From an archaeon (lineage in GTDB: Archaea; Nanobdellota; Nanobdellia; Woesearchaeales; GW2011-AR9): a DNA stretch of 64,000 bases. Shown one piece after another: positions 3,685 through 18,691 of the stretch. A model generated the notes under the pieces. It had not been told where the DNA came from and did not search any database. It saw nothing but the letters and a program-made list of their open reading frames with translations. Numbering within the stretch: the stretch's first letter is position 1; every line of letters begins with the position of its first letter. Location: the NCBI GenBank assembly GCA_018697095.1, contig JABHSG010000003.1:420839-484838 (forward strand). The letters are read 5' to 3'. Both the position numbers and the translations under genes were made by a program.

Positions 3685-3785
3685 TGGCCCCGCCCAGATT
3701 TGAACTGGGGACCACTCGATGTGCTGAGTAAAGCCAATGGCTTGACATATCAGTCGAGCACTCTACCAGGCTAAGCTACAGGGCC
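3685..3785 (-). tRNA. tRNA-Ile(GAT) with a 27-nt intron after position 37
   Basis: GGCCCTG-TA-GCTT..GAGT-G-CTCGA-CTGATA[intron 3721-3747]A-TCGAG-TGGTC-CCCAG-TTCAAAT-CTGGG-CGGGGCC-A. The mature form is 74 nt with all arms paired; intron TCAG pairs with loop CTGA (BHB-like). Confidence 0.93.
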
Positions 3786-16042: not shown

Positions 16043-16099
16043 TGTAATTTAGCGAATTTTAATTATCTTAAACCAGTCTTCTATAATTAAAATAATTAT

Positions 16100-16335
16100 T
16101 CAAAAAAGAAATAAGGGCCAAGCATTTGCTGGCCCCAATAGAGGTGTTGGGTCTTGAGAACAAAACCCATTTGTTTTGAGTGTGGATGGAAGTCCACATT
16201 CAAAGAGGTGGTTTGCGAGACTTGACGAGCAAGCCTCAAAAATCCAGTTAAGGATTTTTTTAAGTTTGAGTCTTGGTATAAGACTCAAGAGGTGTGTGTT
16301 CAAAGCAAGGTAGGTGGCCTTGCTCTTGGAAGAAC
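16100..16335. ncRNA. Candidate structured RNA: about seven tandem stem-loops with GAGGTG (+) / CACCTC (-) linkers
   Basis: Hairpins at 16115-16135, 16148-16169, 16175-16204 (12 bp), 16210-16235, 16238-16259, 16266-16288 (9 bp) and 16305-16323. GAGGTG at 16141, 16205 and 16289. Minus side has TATA-like CTTTATATAGC near 16358-16367 and T-rich TTATTTCTTTTTT after the last hairpin. Confidence 0.6.
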
Positions 16336-16506
16336 ATTATACTAACTGTCTATTTGCTATATAAAGCAAGTGAGGACTAAATGAAGAAACTAGTACCACA
16401 ATGTTTTTAAAAGGAAAAACAAAAAAACGACTATCAAGTAACAACCAAACTGACAAAAAAGTCATTTAACCGTTATTTTTTGAATGGATGGTGGAGAGAG
16501 GAAAAC

Positions 16507-17253
16507 ATGTTTACATTATTTCAAACACCACAATGGTTTGCAGGATTCGATCTACTATTTGATACTATTACACTTCTAATAGCATTACTAATTACAGCTT
16601 ACAGCTATAAATTATACAAGCTAAGTGATGAGAACAAGTTCTTTTACTTTTCAGTGGCTTTTGCACTAATGAGTGTTGGATTTTTATTCAAGTTAGGAAC
16701 ATATCTAACAATTTACTCTCCAGCATCTCAGTACGCTGCTGCTGTTACAATTGTAAAGGTTACAAACTCCCAAGGTATTGGTTCTATTTTTAGAAACTTA
16801 CTTTACAGAGCAGGCTACTTTGTTCAAATGGCTTCCATGCTTGGTTCATGGTTACTACTATTTTTTGTAAGTCAAAAAGGACGTGACCGTCTAAACAAGA
16901 TGCATGAAAGATCACAAATTTTACTTTCAATTTACTTAATCACTTTAATTGCAGTTGTAAGTACTTTTGAGTATCGTATTTTTTACTTAACAAGTCTAGT
17001 ACTTTTAGCTTTAATTGTGCTTCACTTATACGAGAATCACCGTTTAAGAAGATCACAAAACTCCAAAAAAGTTTTACTTGCATTTTTGCTTTTACTAGCA
17101 GCGCAAATATCTTTCGCTTTCATTTTTATTGTGCCAGAATTATACATTGTTGGTGAACTACTAACTCTAGCTGGGTTTGGAACTATTGCTGCAACTTATA
17201 TTGCAATTCAGCAAAAAACAAAACAGATGGCGAATTCCGAGGTACTCAGATAA
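16507..17253 (+). CDS. Polytopic membrane protein, hypothetical
   Basis: Multiple hydrophobic helices; ATG at 16507 has SD ggagagagg (ORF track starts at 16480). Confidence 0.8.
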   Translation: MFTLFQTPQWFAGFDLLFDTITLLIALLITAYSYKLYKLSDENKFFYFSVAFALMSVGFLFKLGTYLTIYSPASQYAAAVTIVKVTNSQGIGSIFRNLLYRAGYFVQMASMLGSWLLLFFVSQKGRDRLNKMHERSQILLSIYLITLIAVVSTFEYRIFYLTSLVLLALIVLHLYENHRLRRSQNSKKVLLAFLLLLAAQISFAFIFIVPELYIVGELLTLAGFGTIAATYIAIQQKTKQMANSEVLR

Positions 17254-17255
17254 AT

Positions 17256-17546
17256 ATGCCAGCAAAAACTAGAAGATCTCGTATGGAACTTGTTTTTGAT
17301 ATCCTTGAAGCTATTCAAAATAGGGGCGGCCAAATTAAACCAACTCATTTAATGTACAAATCAAATTTATCACACAAGCTTCTAACTAACTATCTTCAAG
17401 AGCTTACTCAAAAAGAAATGGTTGAAGTTCGTGAGTACCAGCAAAAAAAGACAGTGAACAAGATGGTTCACATTACTGAAAAAGGTCTTGGCTTTGTAGA
17501 AGAGTACCGTAAAATGCGTGAGTTCACCAGCGCCTTTGGCTTGTAA
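17256..17546 (+). CDS. Winged-helix DNA-binding protein
   Basis: KPTHLMYKSNLSHKLLTNYLQELTQKEMVEVREYQQKKTVNKMVHITEKGLGFVEEYRKM. Confidence 0.85.
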   Translation: MPAKTRRSRMELVFDILEAIQNRGGQIKPTHLMYKSNLSHKLLTNYLQELTQKEMVEVREYQQKKTVNKMVHITEKGLGFVEEYRKMREFTSAFGL

Positions 17547-17671: not shown

Positions 17672-18691
17672 ATGGATGATTTTGAATCAAAAATAGCTCA
17701 ATGTGTTGGTCTTTGGTTAGCTGAAGGTGACAATAAAACTCATTCTGAAGTTACTTTTACAAATAACTGCTTTCCATTAATCAAACTATTTCATCATGTG
17801 TCAAAGAGATTATTTTTGAGCTCTGGTGACTTTAGGCCAAGGTTATACTCTTACAAAAAGGAAGGTCAAAAAATAAAAAAGATTCTTTCCATACAAAACA
17901 ATGAATATTTTGACAAAAGAGCAAGAAAACCATACTATATCTACAGGTTCTCTTCAGTAAAACTAACAAAAATTTGGAAAGAAATAGTCCGGAAATTCAA
18001 AGAAGATGAGCAATATCACATTAAGATATTACAGGGATTTTTTGCAGGGGAAGGCAATGTCAAGTCAGGTAAAAAAAATAGAGCCCTACGAATTGCACAA
18101 AAATACAGATCAAAATTCTTTGAAGTAATATTTGATCAACTTCAACTTACTTATAATTTTAGAATTAAAGAGAGATCTTATATTTTTTGGTCAAGAACAA
18201 CATGGGATATTTTTGCCAAGCACCAAATTTCAGATCTACACCCAGAGAAAAAGCAAAGGTTTGAAACAATCCATTCTCAATTCAAGGAGTATCACTATCC
18301 AAAAAACTATCTATTAACAAGTATCCCTAAACAGTTGAAAAAGCCCAAGACTGCAAAAGAACTCTCAAAAATATTCTCAAGATCACAGGCGCGCGTCTCT
18401 GAAATATTAATAGAGCTAAAAAAGCAAAATAAAGTTGAAGATTTTAGAGTTGGAAGTAAAAATCATTGGGTAAGAATTCCTCATAACTTTGTAATCATCT
18501 CCAAAGTAAAAGAAAAGTACCTAAATATTCTTAAAGTACCGTGCCAAACATATCAAATAGCTAAAACTCTTGGAGTAACTCATAATACCTCAAGAAATAG
18601 GTTGTCTGAGCTTGAAAAATTGAGGTTAGTTGAAAAAAAAGAAAAACTATGGCACAAAAAAAAAACCTCAAAAATAATCGTCGTATTATAG
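17672..18691 (+). CDS. LAGLIDADG-like domain protein with C-terminal HTH domains
   Basis: Two LAGLIDADG-like motifs (CVGLWLAEGDN; LQGFFAGEGNV) followed by HTH segments (TAKELSKIFSRSQARVSEILIELKKQNKV; TYQIAKTLGVTHNTSRNRLSELEKLRLVEKK). Confidence 0.8.
   Translation: MDDFESKIAQCVGLWLAEGDNKTHSEVTFTNNCFPLIKLFHHVSKRLFLSSGDFRPRLYSYKKEGQKIKKILSIQNNEYFDKRARKPYYIYRFSSVKLTKIWKEIVRKFKEDEQYHIKILQGFFAGEGNVKSGKKNRALRIAQKYRSKFFEVIFDQLQLTYNFRIKERSYIFWSRTTWDIFAKHQISDLHPEKKQRFETIHSQFKEYHYPKNYLLTSIPKQLKKPKTAKELSKIFSRSQARVSEILIELKKQNKVEDFRVGSKNHWVRIPHNFVIISKVKEKYLNILKVPCQTYQIAKTLGVTHNTSRNRLSELEKLRLVEKKEKLWHKKKTSKIIVVL

Follow-up and report, generated by a model that had tools for sequence, protein, structure and literature searches.

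The stretch of 64,000 nucleotides analysed here (the window) carries, between glmS and a gene for a membrane protein, an array of hairpins that probably represents an antisense small noncoding RNA, made from the minus strand, which would mask ribosome-binding sites with redundant anti-Shine–Dalgarno motifs. Many Woesearchaeota appear to carry RNAs of the same kind at the corresponding place in their genomes, and this group of RNAs seems not to have been described: we found no publication that deals with regulatory RNAs in Woesearchaeota, and the literature on anti-Shine–Dalgarno RNAs of archaea, DPANN and Woesearchaeota yielded nothing on such RNAs. The named relatives used for comparison are metagenome-assembled genomes of Woesearchaeota and other DPANN archaea (Nanoarchaeota). 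Sequence comparison supplied the assignment of strand, position, promoter and end signals, the conservation and predicted exposure of the motif and the excess of complementarity at the level of the family. Features of the window are summarized in Table 1.

Structure of the array

The seven-hairpin array reported in the initial annotation is real. On re-reading of the window its letters and coordinates agree with that description, including the plus-strand GAGGTG at 16141, 16205 and 16289 and TAGGTGG at 16311–16317. All seven hairpins form in the predicted fold of the minus-strand RNA, but the fourth is not paired as listed; it uses GAGGCTTG/CAAGTCTC, the alternative pairing that had been raised as a caveat. 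Two of the seven are nested into a longer helix in the optimum fold of the plus strand. The region 16050–16400 folds with a z-score of −7.28 as minus-strand RNA and −6.24 as plus-strand RNA, with 0 of 100 shuffles equally stable in each case. CACCTC occurs three times on the predicted minus-strand RNA (16336 to 16101) compared with a shuffle mean of 0.18 (P = 0.0003), and the four motif copies of the window (three CACCTC and the CCACCTA of the first loop) are predicted to be 84–100% unpaired. The predicted start of the RNA is placed by the spacing from the TATA box and its end by the T-tract.

Table 1. Features of the array and its surroundings (window coordinates).
Feature	Position	Strand	Remarks
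Predicted noncoding RNA, about 236 nt	16101..16336	−	5' end ~29 nt downstream of TATA box start; 3' end at T-tract; same layout in relatives
TATA box TTTATATA of minus-strand RNA	16358..16365	−	TATA-like box at same place in 34/34 units (units chosen partly for it)
5'-most hairpin AGAGCAAGG/CCTTGCTTT, CCACCTA in loop (16311-16317)	16302..16326	−	Loop predicted 100% unpaired
Anti-Shine–Dalgarno motif CACCTC, copy 2, within ACACACCTCTTG	16289..16294	−	Predicted 84-99% unpaired
Five spacer hairpins separating motif copies	16147..16288	−	Fold; sequence found in this genome only, without DNA match in relatives
Anti-Shine–Dalgarno motif CACCTC, copy 3, within AAACCACCTCTTTG	16205..16210	−	Predicted about 98% unpaired
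Anti-Shine–Dalgarno motif CACCTC, copy 4, within CCAACACCTCTATTG	16141..16146	−	Predicted 85-99% unpaired
Terminal G+C-rich hairpin GGGCCAGCAAATGCTTGGCCC	16115..16135	−	Fold; position of CCGGGC-loop-GCCCGG of relatives
T-tract TTATTTCTTTTTTG, likely transcript end	16101..16114	−	TTTTTATT-type tracts 3' of hairpin in relatives
Promoter CACAATGTTTTTAAA of divergent membrane-protein gene	16397..16411	+	Same motif in 29/34 units
Membrane-protein gene, 248 aa, weak DUF7521	16507..17253	+	Constant neighbour, possible target
Winged-helix protein (HTH_45; Sso10a chromatin-protein family by NCBIfam)	17256..17546	+	Just 3' of membrane-protein gene

The earlier statement that no RNA family is recognized holds for Rfam, which has no match at the array at gathering or permissive thresholds, the best sub-threshold match being at chance level. 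A search with the array DNA in 98 relatives returned no homologue, only short matches at chance level. Model R1 scores the terminal hairpin in the window at 25.9 bits (E = 0.012), this sequence being itself part of the model. By these comparisons, architecture, position and motif are all that the array has in common with its counterparts in relatives, to the exclusion of DNA sequence. The array does not belong to the leader of the membrane-protein gene, since the promoter of that gene is downstream of the array, between it and the start codon. That the array is a glmS ribozyme, or another of the known RNAs that regulate glmS in cis, was rejected because Rfam gave no match and the unit also occurs without an adjacent glmS. 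The two further genomes of the genus (G001 and G002; loci L098 and L099) have unrelated genes separating the unit from glmS, which is therefore not always adjacent to it.

A divergent unit in the Woesearchaeota

The unit comprises a TATA box (consensus around GATTTATAAA), an RNA of ~60–240 nt with one to four exposed A(A)CACCUC(C/U)U motifs, a terminal hairpin and a T-tract, all on the minus strand. In the family of the window it lies upstream of membrane-protein orthologues, on the opposite strand, in most of 30 loci, and its terminal hairpin often reads CCGGGC-loop-GCCCGG. It is also found in further named Woesearchaeota genomes, with forms of it in other families of the order, and is missing at several orthologues (L041, L042, L047, L052, L055 and L112). 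Of 61 relatives, 42 have an orthologue of the membrane protein, and a profile detects it in 179 of 362 genomes searched in the order. The model built on the terminal part of the unit matches at most once per genome, in 19 of the 51 genomes of the family, and the matches that could be placed are beside the membrane-protein gene. The divergent promoters (16358–16411 in the window) are 46 nt apart here and mostly 55–62 nt apart in relatives; this mostly constant spacing suggests that one regulator serves both, for which the winged-helix protein encoded downstream is a possible candidate.

The motif was analysed in 34 units curated by hand, which were chosen partly for their TATA box and terminal hairpin. 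CACCTC corresponds to the anti-Shine–Dalgarno core, because the 16S rRNA of the same genome ends in GGATCACCTCCTTTT. ACCTC occurs 47 times in the curated units compared with 6.0 in shuffles (maximum of 14 in 300 shuffles), and ACCT[CT] is present in 33 of them; the copies take the forms ACCTC and ACCTT, and the RNAs of some relatives have a single copy. At 0.83, the predicted exposure of the copies exceeds that of composition-matched 5-mers (0.70; P = 0.02) and that of 5-mers rich in C and free of G (0.62; P = 1e-7). As to whether the linkers are lost while the stems vary, which would have told against the initial annotation, we find that the linkers are conserved and the stems vary between genera. 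The stems around the first motif are unrelated between genomes (GCAAGG/CCTTGC in the window, GTCAAGG/CCTTGGC in G001 and ACTCAAG/CTTGAGT in G002); at the place of the 5'-most hairpin of the window, a hairpin of differing sequence, with ACCTCT in its loop, is found in both G001 and G002. Genome G063, of another family, has four ACCTCC copies in the loops and linkers of unrelated hairpins, and in family f10 the motif is found in the loops of two hairpins.

A mimic of the 16S rRNA 3' end, or a decoy for rRNA maturation factors, that would include the bases before the core (GGAUCACCUCC) was rejected on account of mismatched flanks: the core is preceded by GAUC in 0 of 60 copies and by UC (U at −2, C at −1) in one of 60.

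Strand of the predicted RNA

The initial annotation had left the strand open between a minus-strand RNA with anti-Shine–Dalgarno motifs and a plus-strand RNA acting as a Shine–Dalgarno decoy; our comparisons back the former and lend no support to the latter. The TATA-like sequence and T-rich tail that it had noted recur in relatives, as a conserved divergent TATA box and as T-tracts after the terminal hairpin, and in 14 relatives a small ORF with its own Shine–Dalgarno sequence is found at the same place, at the expected start of the RNA. Wobble pairs had been judged to be split between the strands, but the changes in the hairpins of relatives give G–U pairs on the minus strand (A–C on the plus strand) and thus favour the minus strand. 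In the terminal hairpin of the nine f10 members, 97.4% of cells are paired, three pairs are changed on both sides and all one-sided standard changes are G–U on the minus strand. Over the entire RNA, the plus strand has, on average, a slight advantage in fold stability. We read the RNA as a minus-strand transcript because the TATA box, small ORF, T-tract, G–U changes and the pairing test described below, which succeeds for the minus-strand RNA only, are in agreement.

Predicted pairing with the start of the neighbouring gene

In the family of the window, the leader of the membrane-protein mRNA is short and contains a Shine–Dalgarno sequence. A first pairing test on the full-length RNA, terminator hairpin included, was not significant (P = 0.23); with this hairpin removed in a refinement made after that first look, the 45 nt located 5' of it pair better with the start of their own neighbour than with the starts from other genomes (P = 0.003 for 29 loci; P = 0.0009 for 24 non-redundant loci, with values from <0.001 to 0.04 over nine sizes of the sequence window). 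The controls were negative, with P = 0.52 for the start of the winged-helix gene, 0.60 for the reversed RNA and 0.72 for the plus-strand RNA; for the 26 loci that have a winged-helix start for comparison, the test itself gives a P of only 0.05. Examples of predicted pairing with the own neighbour are CTTGGAAAAC/GTTTTCCAAG in L061, 13 pairs in L049 and 14 pairs in L066. The RNA and neighbour of the window itself form an unconvincing pair, with a contiguous helix score of 13 versus 15.8 for the starts of other genomes. In view of the outcome of the first version of the test, we regard family-level pairing as good but not final evidence. The initial annotation did not raise this possible link with the neighbouring gene.

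The neighbour in family f10 looks leaderless by eye, with its ATG ~30 nt from its TATA box, so its Shine–Dalgarno sequence cannot be the target there and another target or function is needed. Envelope-protein mRNAs, as targets through AGAGGTG Shine–Dalgarno sequences, were tried and rejected (membrane-like segment in 9 of 14 genes compared with 5 of 11 control genes; P = 0.30).

Proposed mechanism and alternatives

The preferred reading is as follows. The RNA would be encoded on the minus strand of 16101–16336 and transcribed away from the membrane-protein gene that starts at 16507. Its independent hairpins would space and expose four A(A)CACCUCU-type copies that match the Shine–Dalgarno-pairing end of 16S rRNA, and these redundant copies would base-pair with Shine–Dalgarno sequences and hinder binding of the 30S subunit. 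The first target in the family of the window would probably be the mRNA of the neighbouring membrane protein, and other mRNAs led by Shine–Dalgarno sequences may be secondary targets. What we infer from the comparisons is that this organism transcribes the RNA, that the RNA pairs in cells and represses, and which mRNAs are affected.

The ACCUC copies may instead be binding sites for a protein, either an RNA-binding regulator or a factor of 16S 3'-end maturation, so that the RNA would be a sponge with a layout like that of CsrB/RsmZ. Many short exposed copies on interchangeable hairpins are also the layout of protein-titrating RNAs, and the leaderless appearance of the f10 neighbour mRNA, which excludes pairing with its Shine–Dalgarno sequence there, would suit such a role. 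Two observations make this reading rather improbable: the motif equals the Shine–Dalgarno-pairing core and extends no further into the 16S end, as the counts of UC and GAUC given above indicate, and the excess of complementarity to the start of the neighbour points to base pairing. Somewhat less probable still is that the minus-strand transcript is an mRNA for a conserved protein of 28–50 aa (..FV..LTPDELVYLLYK..), the C-rich part being a 3' UTR that perhaps pairs with its own GAGGTGA Shine–Dalgarno sequence. The 14 relatives with an ORF and Shine–Dalgarno sequence at the start of the RNA, and the four loci (L207, L211, L214 and L222) in which GAGGTGATG and ACACCTCC flank a hairpin, are consistent with this, but the window and 19 other units are without the ORF, and some RNAs of only 60–75 nt keep the motif and have no usable ATG ORF.

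We think it very unlikely that the array is a transcription terminator or a chance cluster of repeats with no regulatory role. Its hairpin and T-tract are terminator-like and glmS, which converges with the RNA, ends just upstream; however, the excess and exposure of the motif extend over 34 units, motif copies lie near the 5' end of the RNA and far from the terminator in L057, L044 and L066, and the model matches, never more than one per genome and the placed ones beside the membrane-protein gene, are unlike a general terminator signal. Least probable, by a little, is a plus-strand RNA that exposes GAGGUG as a Shine–Dalgarno decoy for ribosomes. Its fold is also very stable (z = −6.24), but no conserved plus-strand promoter is seen upstream of the array, the TATA box, ORF and T-tract of relatives are all on the minus strand, hairpin changes would give A–C on the plus strand and the plus-strand RNA has no pairing preference (P = 0.72).

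Comparison with known systems

To our knowledge, the mechanism is known for very few small RNAs of archaea. The protein-sponge RNAs CsrB and RsmZ are bead-strings of hairpins with short, repeated, exposed GGA motifs for the CsrA protein; the array of the window is alike in being a bead-string with exposed repeats, but its motif is ACCUC and not GGA, and the likeness does not imply that CsrA is its target. In pairs of the type I toxin–antitoxin kind, an antisense RNA is encoded divergently next to its target. The predicted small RNA of the window would likewise be divergent from its neighbour, to whose start it would be complementary; that neighbour encodes a membrane protein of 248 aa, found in about half of the searched genomes of the order, and not a tiny toxin.

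There is a close likeness to the α-r14/NfeR1/'cuckoo' RNAs of Alphaproteobacteria, which carry redundant, identical, unpaired anti-Shine–Dalgarno copies on differing hairpins and block translation starts, as is proposed for the window RNA (PMC10746234). Rhizobial NfeR1 has three hairpins with identical anti-Shine–Dalgarno motifs and differing stems and is reported to block ribosome binding (PMC10746234). The motif of these bacterial RNAs is an unpaired, ultraconserved CCUCCUCCC (PMC10746234), compared with A(A)CACCUC(C/U)U in the Woesearchaeota units, which also have a divergent gene as constant neighbour and, in some cases, a small ORF. With a different motif and no family match, the predicted window RNA is not a member of the α-r14 family, and an independent origin of the two kinds is most likely. 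If the preferred reading is true, archaea have reached the redundant anti-Shine–Dalgarno strategy of the rhizobial RNAs independently. In Methanosarcina mazei, sRNA162 masks the ribosome-binding site of its neighbour (PMC3510493); it is likened here by its way of working, but belongs to a distant archaeal lineage and has one pairing region in place of repeated motifs.

Small ORF at the divergent locus

A protein of 28–50 aa with the pattern FV..LT.(D/E)E(L/I)VYLLYK is encoded on the strand of the RNA in 14 of the 34 units (L043, L048–L051, L054, L056, L061–L064, L117, L133 and L134), while the remaining 20, the window among them, are without it. Pfam assigned no family above the cut-off to this small ORF. 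To judge by this distribution, it would fit better as an ancestral or alternative passenger. The wider proposal, which we hold to be evenly balanced between true and false, is that the units constitute an undescribed archaeal small-RNA family across the order, with redundant anti-Shine–Dalgarno motifs, that interchanges repeatedly with a small-protein mRNA at one divergent locus and controls the neighbouring membrane protein and possibly many mRNAs led by Shine–Dalgarno sequences. With its coding and noncoding forms, the locus lends itself to studies of how a small-protein mRNA gives rise to a small RNA or takes its place.

A different small ORF, in many cases with a KE..RKKHW-like end, is divergent to genes that are paralogues or remote relatives of the membrane-protein gene (L167, L169, L202, L203, L212, L220, L232, L235, L237 and L239). 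L207, L211, L214 and L222 show GAGGTGATG, a G+C-rich hairpin and then ACACCTCC, that is, a Shine–Dalgarno and an anti-Shine–Dalgarno sequence on either side of one hairpin, and are possibly transitional between small mRNA and small RNA.

Elsewhere in the window, a 339-aa ORF at 17672–18688 has weak winged-helix matches in its C-terminal part and an N-terminal half that, by eye only, resembles a LAGLIDADG-type homing endonuclease, and a 101-nt tRNA match that possibly contains an intron is located on the minus strand at 3685–3785.
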